Shown here one piece after another: positions 26,508 through 50,860 of a stretch of DNA of 64,000 nt; within the stretch, counting starts at the first letter, position 1; each line of letters begins with the position of its first letter. The notes beneath the pieces are model-generated. The model saw only the letters and a program-made list of their open reading frames with translations, did no database searches and was not told the DNA's origin. Both the position numbers and the translations under genes were made by a program. Where the stretch lies: the NCBI GenBank assembly GCA_030683815.1, contig JAUXPJ010000020.1:186001-250000 (forward strand). Reading direction: 5' to 3'. This DNA is from Flavobacteriaceae bacterium (GTDB taxonomy: Bacteria > Bacteroidota > Bacteroidia > Flavobacteriales > Flavobacteriaceae).

Positions 26508-29279
26508 ATGAAAAAATTACAATTTATCGTGTTATTATTTTTAATGTCTTTAGGCATTAATGCGCAAAATTTAGTTAAAAATATACCTTTTAATAATATT
26601 GGTCCCACTATTATGAGCGGGCGAGTGGTAGATTTAGATGTAAATCCGGATAAACCATCCGAATTTTATGTAGCTTATGCCTCCGGCGGATTGTGGTACA
26701 CCAACAACAACGGAACTACTTTTGCTCCTATGATGGATAATTCGCCCACTCAAAATATAGGCGATATTGCTGTTGATTGGAAAAACGGAACTGTTTGGGT
26801 TGGAACCGGCGAGAACAATTCATCACGTTCATCTTATGCCGGAATCGGACTGTTAAAAAGTATTGATAAAGGTAAAACTTGGACGAATGTCGGACTTACC
26901 GATTCGCATCACATCAGCCGAATTTCTATCAATCCAAAGAATCCAAATGAAGTAATCGTAGCAGTTATTGGTCATTTATACACCACCAACAAGGAACGCG
27001 GAATTTTTAAAACTACCGATGGTGGAAAAACTTGGAAACACACTTTGTTTATTAACGATGCAACGGGTGTCATTGATTTATCGGCAGCACCGGATAATTT
27101 TAAGGTGATGTTCGCCGCCGCTTGGCAACGCGACAGAAAAGCGTGGCATTTTGAAGGAAACGGTCCCAATTCGGGCATCTATAAAAGTACCGATGCCGGT
27201 GATACTTGGCAAAAAATTTCGACTCCTGAAAGTGGATTTCCAACCGGTAATGGCGTCGGCCGAATTGGATTAGCGGCGTTTAATGAAAACATTATTTACG
27301 CCATTCATGACAATCAATTCAGAAGAATAAAAGAAGATAAAAAGAAGGATGAAAATCAATTGGTTAAAGATGATTTTAAATCGATGAGTGTTGAAACGTT
27401 TTTAGAATTAGACAATAAAAAACTCAATAACTTTTTAAAAGAAAACGGATTTCAAGAAAAATACCGCGCAGAAAATGTGAAGAATTTGATCAAAAGCGGA
27501 ACGGTTAAACCGGCAGATATTGCCCATTATTTAGAAGATGCCAATTCTGAATTATTTGATACGCCCGTTATCGGTTCAGAGGTTTACAAATCAGAAGATG
27601 GCGGGAAAACCTGGAGAAAGTCGCACGATGGTTATTTGGATGATATTTATTTCTCTTATGGTTATTATTTTGGTCATATTTATGTGCATCCAAAACATCA
27701 AGAACAAATTTATATTTATGGTGTTCCTATTTTAAAATCGAAAGATAGCGGTAAAACTTTTACGCCCATTAACGCAGAAAATGTACATGTTGACCATCAT
27801 TCGCTTTGGATTAATCCCAATTTAAACGGTCATCTTATCAATGGAAATGACGGTGGAGTCAATATTTCTTATGATGATGGAGAAAATTGGATAAAATGCA
27901 ATACGCCGGCAGTTGGGCAGTTTTATGCCATCAATACAGACAATGCAAAACCTTATAATGTGTACGGCGGATTGCAAGATAACGGCGTTTGGAAGGGGCC
28001 GAGTACTTATAAACCATCGGTAGATTGGTATCAAGAAGGACAATATCCTTATCAATCTATTTTAGGTGGCGATGGCATGCAGGTTGAAATTGACAACAGA
28101 GATAAAACCACTGTTTATACCGGATTTCAATTTGGAAATTATTACCGCATCGACACCAAAACCGAAAAAAGAACGCCGATTCAGCCCAAACACGAATTAG
28201 GCGAAATACCTTTGCGATTTAATTGGCAAACGCCTATTCATCTTTCAGTTCACAATCAGGATATTTTATATTTCGGAAGTAATAAATTACATCGATCACT
28301 AAATAAAGGCGATGATTGGACGGCTATTTCAGCCGATTTAACCCTGGGCGGCAAAAAAGGAAATGTAGCTTTCGGTACGCTGACAACTATTGCTGAAAGT
28401 CCGTTGCAATTCGGAATGTTGTATGTTGGTAGCGATGATGGATTGGTTCATTTTTCTGATAATGGCGGCGGAAGCTGGACTAAAATTTCAGATTCTTTTC
28501 CAAAAGAATTATGGGTTTCCAGAATTGTAGCATCATCTCATAAAAAAGAACGCGTTTATGTGGCGTTAAACGGTTACCGAAATGATGATTTTAAACCCTA
28601 TTTATTTGTTTCTGAGGATAAGGGAACCACTTGGAAATCTATCAGCAACAATTTACCAAACTTCCCAATTAATGTGATTAGAGAAGATGCTGAAAATGAA
28701 AAATTATTGTATGTAGGAAATGATAATGGCGTTTTTGTTTCTTTGGATGGCGGAATTGTATGGCAAGAATTTCAAAAAGATTTGCCCAAAGTTGCCGTTC
28801 ACGATTTGGTAATTCAGAAAGAAGCCAAAGATTTATTGATTGGAACCCACGGACGCTCCATTTATAAAGCGAATATAGCGCCTCTACAACAATTTGAAAA
28901 AACCAAGAATAAAGATCTTTTTATTTTTGAATTGGAATCGATTGGATTTTCTAAAAATTGGGGAAGTTCGTGGAGCAAATGGTTAGAACCCTCTGAACCG
29001 AAACTGAACATTCCGTTTTATGCTGCTAAAGCAGGAATTTATCAAATGATGATTAAATCTGAAGATGGAATTGAATTAAATACCATTGAAGTGAGAGCAG
29101 ATGTCGGTTTTAATTATACTTCATTTAATTTAACGTATTCTGAAAAAGGAAAATCAGCGTATTTAAAAAAGTTTAAAGATGCAGTAATTACCGAAGCAAA
29201 AAATAAAAACTTCTACTTTATTAAAGGAAAATATTCAGTTGTAATAAGCGAAGTTTCACAAACTTTTGAGGTGAAATAA
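26508..29279 (+). CDS. Secreted sortilin/BNR-type beta-propeller protein
   Basis: A 923-residue protein with a signal peptide (to ~INAQ). It contains many Asp-box turns S-x-D-x-G-x-x-W/F: SIDKGKTW, TTDGGKTW, STDAGDTW, SEDGGKTW, SKDSGKTF, SYDDGENW, SDNGGGSW, SEDKGTTW and SLDGGIVW, consistent with two stacked propellers of the VPS10/BNR class. An unusual inserted helical segment lies near residues 275-345. No glycosidase catalytic residues can be assigned. It has a paralogue of 1065 residues on the opposite strand at 30813-34010. It is probably a large extracellular or periplasmic binding protein or hydrolase. Confidence 0.85.
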   Translation: MKKLQFIVLLFLMSLGINAQNLVKNIPFNNIGPTIMSGRVVDLDVNPDKPSEFYVAYASGGLWYTNNNGTTFAPMMDNSPTQNIGDIAVDWKNGTVWVGTGENNSSRSSYAGIGLLKSIDKGKTWTNVGLTDSHHISRISINPKNPNEVIVAVIGHLYTTNKERGIFKTTDGGKTWKHTLFINDATGVIDLSAAPDNFKVMFAAAWQRDRKAWHFEGNGPNSGIYKSTDAGDTWQKISTPESGFPTGNGVGRIGLAAFNENIIYAIHDNQFRRIKEDKKKDENQLVKDDFKSMSVETFLELDNKKLNNFLKENGFQEKYRAENVKNLIKSGTVKPADIAHYLEDANSELFDTPVIGSEVYKSEDGGKTWRKSHDGYLDDIYFSYGYYFGHIYVHPKHQEQIYIYGVPILKSKDSGKTFTPINAENVHVDHHSLWINPNLNGHLINGNDGGVNISYDDGENWIKCNTPAVGQFYAINTDNAKPYNVYGGLQDNGVWKGPSTYKPSVDWYQEGQYPYQSILGGDGMQVEIDNRDKTTVYTGFQFGNYYRIDTKTEKRTPIQPKHELGEIPLRFNWQTPIHLSVHNQDILYFGSNKLHRSLNKGDDWTAISADLTLGGKKGNVAFGTLTTIAESPLQFGMLYVGSDDGLVHFSDNGGGSWTKISDSFPKELWVSRIVASSHKKERVYVALNGYRNDDFKPYLFVSEDKGTTWKSISNNLPNFPINVIREDAENEKLLYVGNDNGVFVSLDGGIVWQEFQKDLPKVAVHDLVIQKEAKDLLIGTHGRSIYKANIAPLQQFEKTKNKDLFIFELESIGFSKNWGSSWSKWLEPSEPKLNIPFYAAKAGIYQMMIKSEDGIELNTIEVRADVGFNYTSFNLTYSEKGKSAYLKKFKDAVITEAKNKNFYFIKGKYSVVISEVSQTFEVK

Positions 29280-29282
29280 TTC

Positions 29283-29312
29283 AAAAAAATCCCGATTTAT
29301 TCGGGATTTTTT
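29283..29312. terminator. Intrinsic terminator (copy A)
   Basis: The stem is AAATCCCGA-TTTAT-TCGGGATTT, with A-tracts and T-tracts on both sides, so it would work in both directions. It follows the propeller gene stop by 3 bp. Confidence 0.85.
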
Positions 29313-29328
29313 GTTTCAACAAACCCTT

Positions 29329-29402
29329 TTAAAACGTCTTTGATTCCTTAAACAAAACTCAGATTTAATTTCTTGACCTGATTTTTAAAGTCAACCCAAT
29401 CT
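29329..29402 (-). pseudogene. Decayed C-terminal fragment of the propeller gene at 30813
   Basis: Read on the minus strand it encodes QKDWVDFKNQVKKLNLS, against NDWVDFKNQVEKLNLSLFKE at the true C-terminus. One extra T in the AGTTTTGTTT stretch then shifts the frame and brings an early TAA. It is a remnant left by duplication of the junction, not an expressed gene. Confidence 0.85.
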
Positions 29403-29475
29403 TTTTGAGGGATAATTATTAATACTTTTAAAAATTATTGATACTTTTAAAAAGTATTAATCTATAAAAAATGTT

Positions 29476-30702
29476 ATGAAAAAAATTACACTTCTACTTA
29501 CTTTATTGGCAAGCGGCTATTTATTTTCCCAGGAGAATCAGCCAAACCTAAAAATTTTCTTAAACTGTAATTATTGCGACGAAACTTACATTAAACAAAA
29601 TTTGACTTTTGTTGAATTTGTAAGAGATCAAAAATTTGCAGATGTTATTTTATTATTTAGAACTCAACAAAATGGAAGCGGAGCCGATACTTATGAAATT
29701 GAATTTACAGGTCAAAATAACTATAATGAAATTCAAGACAAATTAATTTTTTCAACCAATGCTGATAATACAGATAATGAAGTTAGAGATTTGATTTTTA
29801 AAAATATTAAACTTGGGTTAATACGCTATTGGATAAAAAATGGCAAGCAAGATAAAATTACAATTCAAATTGAAAAAGAAATTTCTGGCCCTATAGAAGA
29901 TGAAAAAGATCCTTGGAATAAATGGGTATTTAATTTGGGTATTGACGGTTTTTTTTATGGACAAGAAACTAGCCAAGATGAAAATTTAAGTTTTAGCGCA
30001 ACAGTTAAACAAGTTACTGAAAAGAATAAATTTTATTTAAGAGCAAGACTTAATAATAGCAAATCAGTTTTTACGTATGATAATGTGGACATTATATCTA
30101 AACGAAAGTCTACCAATATTAATTTATATGATGTTGTAAGTATTAATAGCCATTGGTCAGTTGGAGCGTTTGCAACTGTAGGAAAATCAACGTACAATAA
30201 TTATTCTTTCTATTCATCGTTTAAACCTGCTATTGAGTATAATTTCTTTTCATATAAAGATTCTTCAAAAAAGCAATTAACAATATCTTATAAAATAGGT
30301 GGTATTCAGAATAATTATGCAGAAAAAACTATTTTTAATAAAGAGAAAGAATTTTTATGGGAGCACGGTTTAAATTTAGGGGGAAGTGTAAAACAAAATT
30401 GGGGAAATATAACAAGTGAAGTATCTTATCAAAGTTTTTTACATGATTCAGATCTAAATCAATTCTCTTTTCACCTAGGTACTAATTTTAGAATACTCAA
30501 GGGCTTATCATTCAATATAAGTGGCAACTATAGTATTACTGATAATCAAATAAATTTAGCAGGTAGAAATTTGTCTTTGGAAGAATTATTATTGAGACAA
30601 CAACAAGTGAAATCAGGGTATAATTATTTTATAAGTACTGGTTTAAATTATTCATTTGGTTCAATATACAATACCATAGTAAATCCAAGATTTAATTTTT
30701 AA
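29476..30702 (+). CDS. Predicted outer-membrane barrel protein with CNYCD N-terminal domain
   Basis: A 408-residue exported protein (signal peptide to ~LFSQE). The N-terminal domain (~25-135) contains LNCNYCDETYIKQNLTFVEF, VRDQKFADVILLFRTQ and GSGADTYEIEFTGQ. This pattern is familiar from uncharacterised Bacteroidetes proteins whose N-terminal part resembles CsgG/TolB-like periplasmic domains; no function is known. The C-terminal ~250 residues alternate as beta-strands and end in SFGSIYNTIVNPRFNF, typical of an outer-membrane barrel. It sits between two copies of a duplicated junction, so it is an insertion relative to the flanking convergent gene pair. Confidence 0.72.
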   Translation: MKKITLLLTLLASGYLFSQENQPNLKIFLNCNYCDETYIKQNLTFVEFVRDQKFADVILLFRTQQNGSGADTYEIEFTGQNNYNEIQDKLIFSTNADNTDNEVRDLIFKNIKLGLIRYWIKNGKQDKITIQIEKEISGPIEDEKDPWNKWVFNLGIDGFFYGQETSQDENLSFSATVKQVTEKNKFYLRARLNNSKSVFTYDNVDIISKRKSTNINLYDVVSINSHWSVGAFATVGKSTYNNYSFYSSFKPAIEYNFFSYKDSSKKQLTISYKIGGIQNNYAEKTIFNKEKEFLWEHGLNLGGSVKQNWGNITSEVSYQSFLHDSDLNQFSFHLGTNFRILKGLSFNISGNYSITDNQINLAGRNLSLEELLLRQQQVKSGYNYFISTGLNYSFGSIYNTIVNPRFNF

Positions 30703-30734
30703 TGGAAAGAAAACGTCCCGTTTTAGCGGGTAAA

Positions 30735-30890
30735 TTCACAAACTTTTGAAGTGAGATAATTCAATAAAAAATCCCGATTTTATTCGGGATTTTTTGATCT
30801 CAACAAATGCTGTTAAAACGTCTTAGACTCCTTAAACAAACTCAGATTTAATTTTTCAACCTGATTTTTAAAGTCAACCCAATCATTTTT
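30735..30890. repeat. Direct repeat copy B (junction duplication)
   Basis: The second copy of the junction. Its left end carries a remnant of the plus-strand propeller C-terminus (SQTFEV with a stop at the equivalent place), and its right end is the intact 3' end of the minus-strand propeller gene. The period between copies is about 1480 bp. Confidence 0.9.
30766..30795. terminator. Intrinsic terminator (copy B)
   Basis: The arms AAAAAATCCCGA and TCGGGATTTTTT enclose a TTTTAT loop. It serves the gene at 29476 on plus and the propeller gene on minus. Confidence 0.85.
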
Positions 30891-33800
30891 ATAAAAGGTA
30901 TTGACCTTAATTTTATAGGCATCAAAGACTTTTACAGCATTTTCCAACAATTGATTTTCTGTAGCTCCGGGAAGTTGCATTAAATCATTAATATAGGAAA
31001 AAGCGGTAGCTAAATTGGATACGATAGTTGGATCAGGACTTCTCGTAATTCCTTGGCGTTTATCTTCTTTGCCTAATAATTCATCGATAAAACTATCCAG
31101 TTGCTTCGTAATTGAATCATGTTTTTTGAGTAAATCTGCGTGTTTATTATCTTTTAAATCGCCGATTTGTTTTTTATATTGTTTAACAATTTCTTTGGAT
31201 TCATTGAGCTGTTGACTGATATTAGCCATTTGCTCCATTGTATTTTCAGCATCTTTCAACAGTTGGTATTTGGCTTCCAGCGCTTCTGTAGTCATATCAA
31301 TTCGAGGGTCATATTTTACGGAAATCACAGTAGAATCTTTTTCTTTTCCGAATGAAAGAACCAGTTTATAAGTCCCGGGAAGTACGGTAACGCCGCGCGG
31401 TTCAAAATTTCTTCCGCGTTGAGAAGAACTTCTGGAAGGTCTGTTAACTCCTTTTTCATCCAAACCCCAATACATTCTATGAATACCATTTTCTGTTGGA
31501 GTTTTTTGTTTTAAAGTGCGTATTAATTTATTTTCCTGATTGTAAACAGTTACCATTATAGAATCATTTTTTTGTTTAGAATCAGATGTTGATTTAACAG
31601 TTTCTTTTGTTTCTTTTTTCGATTCCTTAATTTCAATTGGTTTGTTGAAGAGGTAACTAATCATAGCACCATCACGTTTATTTTCACCATTGTAAACAGC
31701 ATTTGCACCAAATCGAGTTCCGGTTGGTTGTTGTTTTTCGGTAATAAATGCCTTGTTGGGCTCAAATATTTTGAGGGATTTGGTTAAAAGCGTGACACCT
31801 GTTTTTGCCAATTCGCGCAACGGACGGATATCATCTAAAATCCAAAACGAACGACCAAAAGTTCCGATGACCAAATCGTGTTGTGTTGGATGAATCACTA
31901 AATCCATCGTTGGAACTGATGGATAATCTTCTGTCCATTTTGTCCAATTCTTTCCTTCATCAATACTGAAATATAAACCGTATTCGGTTCCTAAAAATAG
32001 TAGGTTTTTAGCTTCTGTATCTTGGACTAATGATAAAGTGTATCCAAAAGTTTCTTCTTTTTTATCGAGTAAACTTTCCCAAGTTTTTCCATAATCACGC
32101 GTACGGAATAAATATGGCTTGAAATCAAAATTGCGATAATTATTAACTACCACAAACGCTTCAGCAGGATTAAAGGTAGAAGCTTTTATTTGTGCAACCC
32201 AACTTCCGGCAGGCATTCCTTTGATATTTTGCGACAAATTAGTCCAGGTTTCACCTCCATTTCGGGTAATTTGAACATTTCCATCATCAGTTCCAATCCA
32301 AATCAACCCTTTTTCTAAAGTGCTTGGTGTAATGGCTAAAATGGTACAATGATTTTCTGCTCCGGTGGCATCCATGGTTAATCCGCCACTTTCGTGTTGT
32401 TTTTGTTTTTCCGGATTATCAGTGGTTAAATCGGGGGAAATAATTTTCCACTCATGTCCTTTATTGGTTGATTTATGCACAAATTGACTCCCAAAATAAA
32501 CAGTTTCTCCATCAAATGGATCAATGGCAATGGCTGAATTCCAATTAAAACGAAGTTTCATTTTTAGATCAGGATGTGTAGGTTTGATGTTCTTAACATT
32601 TCCTGTAAGTTTATCAAAACGTCCAACATTTCCACCTTGAGACATGGCATATCCGTAGCGATTGTCTTTTAAATCAGGAACAACATCAAAACCATCGCCA
32701 AACATCACTTCTTGCCAATAGGAGTTTCGAATTCCTTGATCTTTCAAAACACTGGAAGGGCCGAACCAAGAACCGTTATCTTGCATTCCGCCGTAAACAT
32801 TATAGGGAAATTCATTATCAACATTTATGTGGTAGAATTGTCCTACCGGAAGATTCTCCACAAAGCGCCATGTTTTTCCACGATCATGTGAGATGTTTAA
32901 CCCACCGTCATTTCCATCGATGATATAATTTGGATTAGAGGGATGAATCCACCACGCGTGATGATCAGGGTGCACACCTTTTGAAGTATTGTAAGCGGGC
33001 ATTAATTCTTCAAAAGATTTTCCGCCGTCAATACTAACGGTTACATAAGTATGAATGCTGTAAAGGCGATTTTCATTGAGTGGATCAACATAGATTTCTG
33101 CATAATAAAATGGACGATTGTTGATATTGTCAGAATCATTGACTTTTTTCCATTTAAATCCGCCATCTTCAGATTTGTAAAGTCCATTTTTTTCAGCTTC
33201 AACTAAAGCATATACAATTTTTGGATTGCTGGCAGATATTGCCAAACCTGTTCTTCCTAAGTTTCCTTTAGGCAAACCATCATCTTCTGTTTTTTTACTC
33301 CAGTTTTTTCCACCATCATAGGAAATGTAAATTCCAGAGCCTTCACCACCCGATTTAAAAAACCACGGATCGCGTTTGTGTTCCCACATAGCCGCAATTA
33401 ATTTATTGGGATTAGAACTATCCACTACCAAATCGGCAGCACCGGTTCTGTTGTTTACAAATAGGATTTTTTCCCATGTTTTTCCGCCATCAGTAGTTTT
33501 AAAAACACCTCTTTCCGGATGTTCTCCCCAAGGAGATCCGATTGCAGCCACATAAACAGTATTTGGATTGTCTCTATCGATGATAATTCGATGGATATTG
33601 CGGGTTTTTTCCAGACCCATCAATTGCCAGTTTTTACCGCCATCCAAACTTTTATAGATTCCATAACCTCCGTTTAAGCTGTTTCTCGGATTTCCTTCAC
33701 CGGTTCCTACCCAAATCACATCCGGATTACTTTGTTGAATAGTAATGGCACCAATAGCTTGAATGGGCTGTTTGTCAAATATAGGTTCCCATTCTATGCC

Positions 33801-34010
33801 GCCACTTTCAGATTTCCAAACACCACCTGAAGCGGCGCCAGCGTAAATTATTTCCGGTTGATTATTAACAACGTCAACAGCAGTAATTCGACCACTCATT
33901 CCTGCGGGACCGATAGATCGAGGTTTCATTCCTTTAAACTTTTCAATAGGTAATTGTTGTGAAAAAGCGATTAAAGAAACGAAGAAAAAGAAGTAAAGTA
34001 TTTTTTTCAT
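30813..34010 (-). CDS. Secreted sortilin/BNR-type beta-propeller protein with C-terminal coiled coil
   Basis: The protein is 1065 residues from the ATG at 34010 (MKKILYFFFFVSLIAFSQQ, a signal peptide); 19 more residues would precede it in the open frame. About ten Asp-box turns are visible: SESGGIEW, SLDGGKNW, TTDGGKTW, SYDGGKNW, SEDGGFKW, SIDGGKSF, SHDRGKTW, TRNGGETW, TRDYGKTW and SIDEGKNW. The C-terminal third adds a beta-domain (PGTYKLVLSFGKEKDS) and a helical coiled-coil region (~930-1010). It is the class often labelled glycosyl hydrolase, but no catalytic residues are evident. It is paralogous to the protein at 26508. Confidence 0.85.
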   Translation of the reverse strand: MKKILYFFFFVSLIAFSQQLPIEKFKGMKPRSIGPAGMSGRITAVDVVNNQPEIIYAGAASGGVWKSESGGIEWEPIFDKQPIQAIGAITIQQSNPDVIWVGTGEGNPRNSLNGGYGIYKSLDGGKNWQLMGLEKTRNIHRIIIDRDNPNTVYVAAIGSPWGEHPERGVFKTTDGGKTWEKILFVNNRTGAADLVVDSSNPNKLIAAMWEHKRDPWFFKSGGEGSGIYISYDGGKNWSKKTEDDGLPKGNLGRTGLAISASNPKIVYALVEAEKNGLYKSEDGGFKWKKVNDSDNINNRPFYYAEIYVDPLNENRLYSIHTYVTVSIDGGKSFEELMPAYNTSKGVHPDHHAWWIHPSNPNYIIDGNDGGLNISHDRGKTWRFVENLPVGQFYHINVDNEFPYNVYGGMQDNGSWFGPSSVLKDQGIRNSYWQEVMFGDGFDVVPDLKDNRYGYAMSQGGNVGRFDKLTGNVKNIKPTHPDLKMKLRFNWNSAIAIDPFDGETVYFGSQFVHKSTNKGHEWKIISPDLTTDNPEKQKQHESGGLTMDATGAENHCTILAITPSTLEKGLIWIGTDDGNVQITRNGGETWTNLSQNIKGMPAGSWVAQIKASTFNPAEAFVVVNNYRNFDFKPYLFRTRDYGKTWESLLDKKEETFGYTLSLVQDTEAKNLLFLGTEYGLYFSIDEGKNWTKWTEDYPSVPTMDLVIHPTQHDLVIGTFGRSFWILDDIRPLRELAKTGVTLLTKSLKIFEPNKAFITEKQQPTGTRFGANAVYNGENKRDGAMISYLFNKPIEIKESKKETKETVKSTSDSKQKNDSIMVTVYNQENKLIRTLKQKTPTENGIHRMYWGLDEKGVNRPSRSSSQRGRNFEPRGVTVLPGTYKLVLSFGKEKDSTVISVKYDPRIDMTTEALEAKYQLLKDAENTMEQMANISQQLNESKEIVKQYKKQIGDLKDNKHADLLKKHDSITKQLDSFIDELLGKEDKRQGITRSPDPTIVSNLATAFSYINDLMQLPGATENQLLENAVKVFDAYKIKVNTFYKNDWVDFKNQVEKLNLSLFKESKTF

Positions 34011-34175
34011 CAGTTTGAATAGTTTTGTTTGAAATTGAAAAGTAGAATTTATTTCATTGATATACAAAACAGTTAATTTAATTTAACAAAATATTTTATT
34101 TTTGCAGATAACTTATAATCATTCTAAATTGATTAAAAATCAATTAATTCAATAGTGTGTCCAATTTCTATGTTT

Positions 34176-34211: not shown

Positions 34212-34889
34212 ATGAGCGGATTTTTATCTTCATCAATTGCCAAAAAGGTTGCGATGGCACTTTCGGCATTATTCCTTATTTTCTTCTTAATTATTCATTT
34301 AGCAGTTAACTTAACATCATTATTTGGTGAAAACGTATTTAATGAGTTATCTCACTTTATGGGAACAAATCCACTAATCCAATTTGCATTGCAACCTATA
34401 CTTATTTTAGGTGTTGTATTTCATTTTGTACTGGGTTTCGTTTTGGAAATTAAAAATAGAAAATCGAGGAACGTTAAATATGTTAAATACAATGGTGCTG
34501 CCAATGCCACTTGGATGTCAAGAAATATGATTATCAGCGGCGGTGTTATTTTAGCATTTATTGTTTTACATTTTGTTGATTTTTGGATTCCAGAAATCAA
34601 CACAAAATATATCCTTGGGGATATGTCGGGTCAGTTTGAAGGCGAAACCAGTTTTCGTTATTTTACAGAATTACAACATAAATTTGCCAATCCATGGAGA
34701 GTAGTTGCTTATGTAGTTGCTTTTATCTTATTGGCATTGCATTTATTACACGGATTTCAGTCAGCTTTTCAATCGATTGGATTTAACAATAAATACACCA
34801 GCTGTCTGAAATCATTTGGGAAATTTTATGCGATTGCAGTTCCTTTAGGATTTATAATAATTGCATTATTTCATCATTTTAACCATTAA
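34212..34889 (+). CDS. sdhC: Succinate dehydrogenase cytochrome b subunit
   Basis: A 225-residue integral membrane protein with five predicted helices. Membrane-embedded histidines (FLIIHLAVN, VVFHFVLG, FIVLHFVDF, LLALHLLHGFQSAFQS) fit the dihaem anchor of Bacteroidetes/epsilon-proteobacterial type succinate:quinone reductases, which have a single large anchor subunit and no sdhD. It binds quinone and transfers electrons from SdhB. It is the first gene of sdhCAB, with sdhA 12 bp downstream. Confidence 0.95.
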   Translation: MSGFLSSSIAKKVAMALSALFLIFFLIIHLAVNLTSLFGENVFNELSHFMGTNPLIQFALQPILILGVVFHFVLGFVLEIKNRKSRNVKYVKYNGAANATWMSRNMIISGGVILAFIVLHFVDFWIPEINTKYILGDMSGQFEGETSFRYFTELQHKFANPWRVVAYVVAFILLALHLLHGFQSAFQSIGFNNKYTSCLKSFGKFYAIAVPLGFIIIALFHHFNH

Positions 34890-34901
34890 TCTTATTCAAT
34901 T

Positions 34902-36905
34902 ATGTCGACTTTAAATTCAAAAATACCAGAAGGTCCAATAAAAGATAAATGGACAAAATATAAAGACAAAATTAACTTAGTTAATCCTGCAAACAAACGT
35001 AATATAGATATCATTGTTGTAGGAACTGGTTTGGCAGGAGGTTCTGCGGCTGCTACATTAGCAGAACAAGGGTACAACGTTAAAGCATTTGCTTACCAAG
35101 ATTCGCCAAGAAGAGCACACTCAATTGCTGCTCAAGGAGGAATCAATGCTTCAAAAAATTATATGGGTGATGGAGATTCTGATTACCGTTTATTTTATGA
35201 CACCATAAAAGGAGGGGATTACCGTTCGCGCGAAGCCAACGTTTATCGTTTAGCAGAAGTTTCGAGTAATATCATTGACCAATGTGTGGCGCAAGGTGTT
35301 CCGTTAGCAAGAGATTACGGCGGACAATTAGACAACCGTTCTTTTGGAGGAACTTTAGTTTCCAGAACTTTTTATGCTAAAGGACAAACCGGACAACAAT
35401 TGTTGTTAGGTGCTTATTCTGCAATGAATCGTCAAATTGCTCGTGGTAAAATTCAAATGTTTAACCGCCATGAAATGTTAGATGTGGTGATTGTCAATGG
35501 AAAAGCAAGAGGAATTATAGCACGCGATATGATTACCGGTGAAATTGAACGTCATTCTGCGCACGCTGTTGTAATTGCATCTGGTGGATATGGAAATGTG
35601 TATTATTTATCTACCCTCGCCATGGGTTCAAACGCAACTGCTGCATGGAAAGCTCATAAAAAAGGAGCGTATTTTGCCAACCCTTGTTTTACCCAAATTC
35701 ACCCAACCTGTATTCCGCGTTCTGGCGATTATCAATCTAAATTAACCTTGATGTCTGAGTCATTACGTAATGATGGACGGATTTGGGTTCCTAAAAAACT
35801 GGAAGATGCGAAAGCAATTCAGCAAGGAAAATTAAAACCAACCCAAATTGCTGAAGAAGATAGAGATTACTATTTAGAGCGTCGTTATCCATCGTTTGGT
35901 AATTTAGCACCACGAGATATTTCATCGCGTGCTGCAAAAGAGCGTTGCGATGCCGGTTATGGTGTAAATGCCACCGGAGAAGCGGTGTATTTAGATTTCT
36001 CAACAGCAATTAATCGTTACGGAAAAGAAAAAGCATTTGTATTGGGTATTCACAATCCAACGCAGGAAAAAATCATTGAATTAGGCGAAAAAGTAATCAA
36101 TGAAAAATATGGAAACTTGTTTCAGATGTATGAAAAAATTATTGATGAAAATCCGTATAAAACACCAATGATGATTTATCCGGCTACACATTACACCATG
36201 GGTGGACTTTGGGTTGATTATAACTTAATGACCACCGTCCCCGGAATGTATTGTATTGGCGAAGCTAATTTTTCTGACCACGGAGCAAATCGTTTAGGCG
36301 CTTCGGCTTTAATGCAAGGTTTAGCCGATGGATATTTTGTACTTCCATATACGATTGGTGATTATTTAGCGCCAGATATCAAAACAGGGGCAATTCCAAC
36401 AAATACACCTGAATTTGATGAAGCTGAAAAGGCCATCAGAGAGCGTTTAGAGTTTTTCATCAATAATAAAGGGACTCATTCTGTTGATTATTTCCACAAG
36501 AAATTAGGAAAAATTATGTGGAATAAAGTTGGAATGGGACGTACAGAACAAGGATTAAAAGAAGCGATTGTAGAAATTCAGCAAGTACGTGAAGATTTCT
36601 GGAAAAATGTAAAAGTTCCGGGAGCAATGAATGAACTGAATCCTGAATTGGAAAAAGCGGCTAGAGTTGCTGATTTCCTGGAATTGGCAGAATTATTTGC
36701 TAAAGATGCCTTGGAACGAAATGAATCTTGTGGTGGACATTTCCGTGAAGAATATCAAACAGAAGAAGGAGAAGCCATGCGTGACGATGCCAATTACGCT
36801 TATGTTGCTGTTTGGGAATATACCGGAAAACCAAGCGAAGCAGTTTTACATAAAGAAGAATTAAAATTTGAAGAGTTAGAATTTAAAACACGATCCTATA
36901 AATAA
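34902..36905 (+). CDS. sdhA: Succinate dehydrogenase flavoprotein subunit
   Basis: A 667-residue catalytic subunit of complex II. The FAD-binding motif is [20 protein letters not shown], and the covalent-FAD His is in [18 protein letters not shown]. Active-site segments include [48 protein letters not shown] and [14 protein letters not shown]. It oxidises succinate to fumarate in the TCA cycle. The protein is longer than proteobacterial SdhA (~590) but typical of the Bacteroidetes form. Confidence 0.97.
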
Positions 36906-49936: not shown

Positions 49937-50860
49937 ATGTTATCCAATTTTTTAAGTAAAACACGTCCAATTAATTACTTAATGATTTTGTTGATTCTTG
50001 TTATTTTCTTTTTTGTTGGTGTTTTTACTGATGATAATTTAGCGTTAAACATATCATGGTTTATTAAAATTTTAATAAACGCCACAGCACTCTTTTTTAC
50101 GGTTTTACTTGTCAATTTTGTGATTCGTAAAAATACACTCACAAAAGACAATTCATATGCTTTATTTTTTATGGTGATGTTTTTTGGGATGTTGCCTCAA
50201 ACGATGACTTGGTCTGTGCTGTTTTTATCGAATGTATTTTTATTGATTTCCCTTCGAAGGGTTTATAGTTTAAAAAACAATGGCAGAATCCAGATAAAAG
50301 TATTTGATGCCGGATTATGGCTCGGAATTTCAGTGCTTTTTTATAATAATCTTATTCTATTTTGGATTGTAATATTGATGGGATTAGTGTTTTACCAAAG
50401 ACTAAACTTAAAGAATGTAATAATCTCCATTTTAGGAGTTGCCACTCCTATATTTTTATATTATGTGTATCGTTTAACTTTTGACCAATTGTCAGATTTT
50501 AACCAACTTTTTGATTTAGAATTAGATAACAGCATTGTTTTTTACGGAAAATTATCTATTTTAATTCCGATAAGTATCCTTATTAGTTTATTAATTTGGT
50601 CAGGAATCAGTATTACTTCAGGGCTTCATAGAATTAGTGCTAAAAACAGATCTTCTTGGTTTTTAATGCTTTTTAATTTGATGATTGCTTCATTGATTTC
50701 TTTTATGAGCATCAATAAAAATGGAAGTGAATTGATTTTTTTATTCTTTCCGGCAAGTGTAATATTAGCCAATTATCTTCAAAAAGAAAAAGACAAATGG
50801 TTTAGAAATTTGGTGTTGTATCTTGTTTTTTTTATCGGAATTGGTATTTATTTCTTATAA
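49937..50860 (+). CDS. DUF6427-like polytopic membrane protein
   Basis: A 307-residue protein with roughly nine hydrophobic helices starting with MLSNFLSKTRPINYLMILLI. It is of the flavobacterial family recalled as DUF6427, adjacent to upp and the DUF6341-like gene as commonly seen in this group. No enzymatic motif is visible; an O-antigen-ligase or glycosyltransferase-like membrane fold is possible but not supported by residues. It is convergent with upp and overlaps its 3' end by 6 bp. Confidence 0.75.
   Translation: MLSNFLSKTRPINYLMILLILVIFFFVGVFTDDNLALNISWFIKILINATALFFTVLLVNFVIRKNTLTKDNSYALFFMVMFFGMLPQTMTWSVLFLSNVFLLISLRRVYSLKNNGRIQIKVFDAGLWLGISVLFYNNLILFWIVILMGLVFYQRLNLKNVIISILGVATPIFLYYVYRLTFDQLSDFNQLFDLELDNSIVFYGKLSILIPISILISLLIWSGISITSGLHRISAKNRSSWFLMLFNLMIASLISFMSINKNGSELIFLFFPASVILANYLQKEKDKWFRNLVLYLVFFIGIGIYFL

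Follow-up and report, generated by a model that had tools for sequence, protein, structure and literature searches.

How does a gene come to stand between two copies of the junction that its own neighbours form without it? The question is raised by a 64,000-nucleotide stretch of a Flavobacteriaceae genome, hereafter the window, in which a gene that we call ins (29476..30702, plus strand, 408 aa) lies between two convergent genes for propeller proteins of the Sortilin-Vps10/BNR family. The left gene, L (26508..29279, plus strand), is intact and encodes 923 aa with a match to Pfam PF15902 (E 4e-31); the right gene, R (30813..34010, minus strand), has its most likely start at 34010, not at the TTG at 34067. 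Beyond R, at 34212..36905 on the plus strand, follow two genes that we take to be sdhC (34212-34889) and sdhA (34902-36905), recognised as fumarate reductase/succinate dehydrogenase sequences and not by a family search.

The junction, J, is about 155 bp long and comprises the 3' end of L, a terminator and the 3' end of R. Its two copies are direct repeats that flank ins on both sides, about 1,480 bp apart; in an alignment of the left copy (29255-29408) with the right copy (30735-30891), 140 of 153 columns are identical, with 13 mismatches and 5 gap positions. Both copies carry the same elements in the same order: the final 25 nt of L including its stop codon, the terminator hairpin, a short spacer, and the final ~80 nt of R, read from its stop codon into the gene. 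The left copy holds the true end of L and the right copy the true end of R, and the remaining two ends are remnants. The R remnant in the left copy (pseudo-R, 29329..29408, minus strand) has a one-base insertion, an extra A within a run near 29353-29356 that breaks the frame, and is identical to the true R end at 70 of 76 positions once this base is removed. The L remnant in the right copy (pseudo-L, 30735..30759, plus strand) consists of the final 25 nt of L with two substitutions, reads SQTFEVR* and ends at 30759. The hairpins of both copies fold strongly, at -15.5 kcal/mol (z -4.7) on the left (29284..29312) and -16.0 kcal/mol (z -4.2) on the right (30765..30796), the latter now standing between ins and R. 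In a control comparison of the two 250-nt flanks of each of 249 genes, drawn from the window and from related loci, the best local match scored 220 for ins, 38 for the next best gene and 20 at the median; the duplication around ins is not a product of chance. High-identity matches to J elsewhere in the genome are confined to the ~30-nt terminator core. The initial annotation of this DNA had described just such a doubled junction, with a frameshifted piece of R on the left and a remnant of L on the right, and in these respects it was accurate.

Between the two copies lie the upstream region of ins (29409..29475, plus strand), which can be aligned with the regions upstream of ins in the congeners G001 and G002, the gene itself, and a weak hairpin 3' of its stop codon (CCCG-TTTTAG-CGGG, 30717..30730, plus strand, z -1.2) that has no U-tract and is possibly a broken terminator brought in with ins. 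Just 5' of ins, at window positions 29418-29461, there is an imperfect inverted repeat or partial tandem repeat (ATTAATACTTTTAAAA...), of which the congener G002 has a single similar unit; from its sequence it could be a regulatory site. The annotation had held that no transposase was needed, and this agrees with the surroundings: we found no transposase or integrase genes nearby, and the region from 22.8 to 36.9 kb holds only pepP, chaN, an M20 peptidase gene, L, ins, R and the sdh genes. Nor did a search of the ends of the insert yield terminal inverted repeats or attC sites, the sole inverted repeats at both ends being the terminator hairpins themselves; the ins segment does not qualify as a transposon or an integron cassette.

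The product of ins is a predicted secreted protein with an N-terminal domain that carries two invariant cysteines (C31 and C34) and a C-terminal beta-barrel. The protein is predicted to be an outer-membrane barrel from an AlphaFold2 model (pLDDT 76, pTM 0.54) and from Foldseek matches to outer-membrane barrels such as OmpG, FapF and EstA at a low TM of ~0.36. No Pfam family matched it, and its NCBIfam matches were all below threshold. The function of ins has no bearing on the duplication of J.

The structure of the locus in relatives provides the main constraint on its history. We compared this genome (G000) with three of the same genus (G001, G002 and G003) and with other Flavobacteriaceae, among them G074. 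The annotation had proposed a search for relatives with an uninterrupted convergent pair, and had named, as findings that would speak against its reading, the lack of any single-copy junction in relatives or copies of J that do not align. The copies align, and G003 (public MAG JAGXRT010000034.1) has L and R convergent, ~46 bp apart from stop to stop, with a single junction and without ins at the locus. We found no ins match anywhere in the G003 genome, which is 88% complete; the locus there is unbroken, with no gene between L and R. G003 is not a sister strain but another species, with an R end ~80% alike. In G001 the order is L-ins-R, with ~40 bp between the stops of ins and R and without a clear duplicated junction, and in G002 (public MAG JAUYUF010000137.1) L and ins are followed by the end of the contig. 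G001 and G002 are probably the closest relatives of this genome; in the tree of the genus, G003 falls outside the other three with weak support (71/61).

Across the family, an ins match occurs in 39 of 301 genomes. The gene directly precedes sdhC and sdhA in nine other genera (G016, G109, G176, G271, G319, G253, G086, G294 and G227), and L directly precedes ins in three of these (G176, G319 and G086) and in a tenth genus (G222). Further genera have L and sdhC without an ins match. Of the loci examined, those of this genus and of G074 are the only ones with R between ins and sdhC, and R is therefore a later arrival. Judged from these gene orders, the old arrangement is pepP-L-ins-sdhCA, with repeated losses of ins and with sdhC and sdhA as its ancestral right-hand neighbours. 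The occurrence of L-ins-sdhC in other genera rules out a plain new insertion of ins, and G003 was rejected as proof of the ancestral state for the family and kept open as such within the genus. The claim of a gene insertion thus has to be divided: ins did enter an intact L-R junction, as the two copies of J and the single copy in G003 indicate, but it is no foreign newcomer to the site, since the usual place of the gene in the family is between L and sdhC. Several of the distant ins relatives, at loci L006, L090, L092, L096 and L100, show one TAG codon within the matched stretch, for which pseudogenes or run-over of the alignment are candidate explanations.

A contiguous series of L end, terminator and R end can form only in the absence of ins, and two such series are present, which means that the locus once went through a stage without ins or exchanged DNA with an ins-less one. 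As read from the sequence, the structure of J argues that the immediate ancestor of this locus was without ins, though the ancestral locus of the family had it. The history that fits best, and that we consider rather probable, is that ins was lost and that a horizontally acquired copy re-entered through the empty junction. On this account ins would be an old resident of the pepP-L-ins-sdhCA block in Flavobacteriaceae, and R would have arrived between ins and sdhC first. In the ancestry of this genome ins would then have been deleted, or an ins-less allele would have spread, so that the convergent L and R shared a single terminator, the state seen in G003. An ins gene of low GC would subsequently have been acquired from a different species, together with the DNA upstream of it, and its recombination into the junction would have given J-ins-J. 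Its route of entry would be DNA uptake and recombination at the junction, either by a Campbell-type crossover of a molecule bearing J or by end capture with a long target duplication. Because each copy of J contains a terminator, L, ins and R are each terminated, and the insertion would thus disturb its neighbours little.

Several features of the genome bear on this route. The gene dprA is present, and Ku (PF02735) was absent in searches of G000-G003 and G074, a control search finding it in Bacillus subtilis; the pair of observations leans away from end-joining by Ku and allows DNA uptake. Natural competence is known in some Flavobacteriaceae, for example in Riemerella, according to a passage of PMC7965970. 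A foreign source would be consistent with the base composition of ins, whose GC3 of 17.6%, a single gene's value, is the lowest of 31 genes in the window (the others range from 23.2 to 35.6%, with a mean of ~28%). In G001, G002, G074 and seven other genomes, the GC3 of ins is about level with or above that of its neighbours. Elsewhere in the window, the DUF6427 gene at 49937-50860 has a low overall GC (27.5%) and an ordinary GC3 (26.9%), its low GC probably reflecting amino-acid content.

The ins genes of G074 and this genus are 77% identical as against 66% for L and R, and elsewhere ins is less conserved than L. The identities lend support to horizontal exchange of ins between the two but do not settle it, as sdhC, too, is comparatively similar (80%) and the L of G074 groups elsewhere. 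The left flank of the G074 locus is unusually far from the genus of the window, with pepP at 65% versus 69-75% in most other genera, and this locus (L101), with its distant pepP and close ins and sdhC, is possibly a patchwork made by transfer. Also present there are an additional gene, of the DUF6973 type, that separates L from ins (G074:C62, 8070-8684) and, between chaN and L, a three-gene signalling group; the members of this group, named by eye, are presumably a sensor kinase, a response regulator with a cyclic-nucleotide-binding-like domain, and a UspA-like protein. Mapping of ins against G001 and G002 for a mosaic structure or a donor found fairly even identity along the gene and no clear breakpoint.

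The age of the duplication can be bounded by the R piece, in which the copies of J differ at 6 of 76 bases, compared with 15-19 between species. Since the copies differ less than the species do, the age of the duplication, or of the event that last made its copies alike, falls by this sequence comparison far below that of the species. Synonymous sites were rejected as a clock across species because of saturation: between members of the genus, L and R are 35-45% identical at fourfold sites, near saturation, with the exception of L in G001 and G002 (52%).

Some observations count against loss followed by regain. G001 and G002 have ins in this position but show no clear duplication of J, and vertical inheritance there and in this genome is thus possible; the left gap of G002 looks like a degraded end of R, which would push the duplication further back in time; and the position of G003 in the tree is weakly supported, its genome is incomplete, and the low GC3 comes from one gene.

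The initial annotation had favoured a single (Campbell) crossover that integrates a circular molecule with ins and a diverged copy of J on it; this is a special case of loss and regain. Such a crossover gives J-ins-J in one step and without a transposase, and so the annotation was right that it yields the observed structure; it is one of several routes, however, not singled out by the sequence, and we think it unlikely to be the actual one. The mismatches between the copies are ambiguous. In the R piece, 5 of 6 fall at third codon positions and 4 of 6 are synonymous (by eye), as if the copies were coding alleles of two parents, but by the outgroup most substitutions and the frameshift lie on the pseudo-copies, as if the copies had begun identical and the freed ones had drifted; the numbers are too small to tell the two patterns apart. 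Further, no relative of ins was found on 72,556 plasmids, and for a circle to bear J, a J-ins-J arrangement or a comparable fusion would have had to exist beforehand.

A doubtful alternative is that J-ins-J is old, dating from the ancestor of G000, G001 and G002, and decayed in the latter two while gene conversion kept the copies alike in G000. Under this scheme a deletion between terminators would have removed the pseudo-L on the right in G001. The left gap of G002 contains, just after the terminator, a signal suggestive of a degraded R end, whose register agrees with that in G000 (0 of 200 shuffles were as good, and 1 of ~335 real intergenic control windows ties), and the regions upstream of ins can be aligned between G000 and G002. 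The same-register signal in the left gap of G001 is not significant, however, with 31 of 200 shuffles as good; conversion would be required across the entire 155 bp in G000; and the low GC3 of ins in G000 alone is left unexplained. If the remnant in G002 is real, the first duplication may predate these species, and this genome would then have undergone gene conversion or a further event.

It is also conceivable, and to our minds improbable, that ins was never lost, and that two separate template switches in an L-ins-R locus copied the R end to the left and the L end to the right. The similar terminator cores, found repeatedly in the genome, could have served as switch points, but the same contiguous J would have had to be built twice by chance, in two events that each joined DNA homologously at one end and illegitimately at the other, and the base composition is unexplained. 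A chimeric assembly of two strains, one with ins and one without, suggested by copies that differ by ~8%, as two strains might, and by the metagenomic origin of at least two relatives, is very far-fetched, as no overlap usable by an assembler is apparent at the joints at ~29409 (R piece to ins upstream region) and ~30735 (ins tail to L piece), and the contig is 296 kb long in a genome of 23 contigs that is 99.99% complete.

Loss followed by regain through the empty junction has consequences for how gene content is read. Gene presence and absence are usually scored without telling retention from loss and regain. Where the junction formed in a gene's absence stands on both sides of that gene, the empty state is directly on record, and a history of loss and return becomes readable from one genome. 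Conversely, not every gene enclosed by direct repeats is new to its site, as the family gene order shows that ins belongs there. At the speculative end, where we would place only slight belief, J might act as a cassette: recombination between its copies would excise ins cleanly and restore a terminated empty junction as in G003, and the J-ins circle might return at that same junction, in its own or a related cell. A plain chromosomal gene would then cycle in and out at its own address without a recombinase of its own.

The locus can be compared with several known systems. Homology-facilitated illegitimate recombination, reportedly described in natural transformation by de Vries and Wackernagel in 2002 (cited in PMC2884548), is similar in that a foreign gene would enter by one homologous and one non-homologous joint. 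Its classical outcome, however, is an insertion with a deletion, not a two-sided duplication of 155 bp. Small variable segments between direct repeats (PMC2884548) likewise place a variable gene between repeats, and other genomes have the site without it; most of those repeats are shorter than 30 bp and were read as deletion sites, unlike the 155-bp repeats here. In Arabidopsis, transposition of genes with flanking repeats has been proposed to proceed by excision of a circle and homologous re-insertion (Woodhouse et al. 2010, PMC2869330). There, too, the inserted gene lies between direct repeats of its genic target, a sequence that a relative carries at the orthologous position, but the genome is a plant nuclear one, and ins, for which we found no donor site or circle, is back at its own ancestral address. 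Insertion with long target duplication was described from comparisons of Helicobacter pylori strains (Nobusato et al. 2000, Gene 259:99), as related in passages of PMC1643837 and PMC3031569. The likeness extends to one or more extra genes in one genome, long direct repeats, a segment that is single-copy in a relative, no need for a transposase, and repeats that could permit later deletion or amplification. The ~155-bp repeats around ins are much longer than the target-site duplications of transposons, and the repeat is single-copy at the orthologous site without ins in G003. Those insertions often involve restriction-modification genes and strains of one species, whereas here a barrel-protein gene, a difference between species and an ancestral address are involved. 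The kind of event is thus already known, and the ins locus is a clear example of it; what is unusual is the return of the gene to the normal address of its family.
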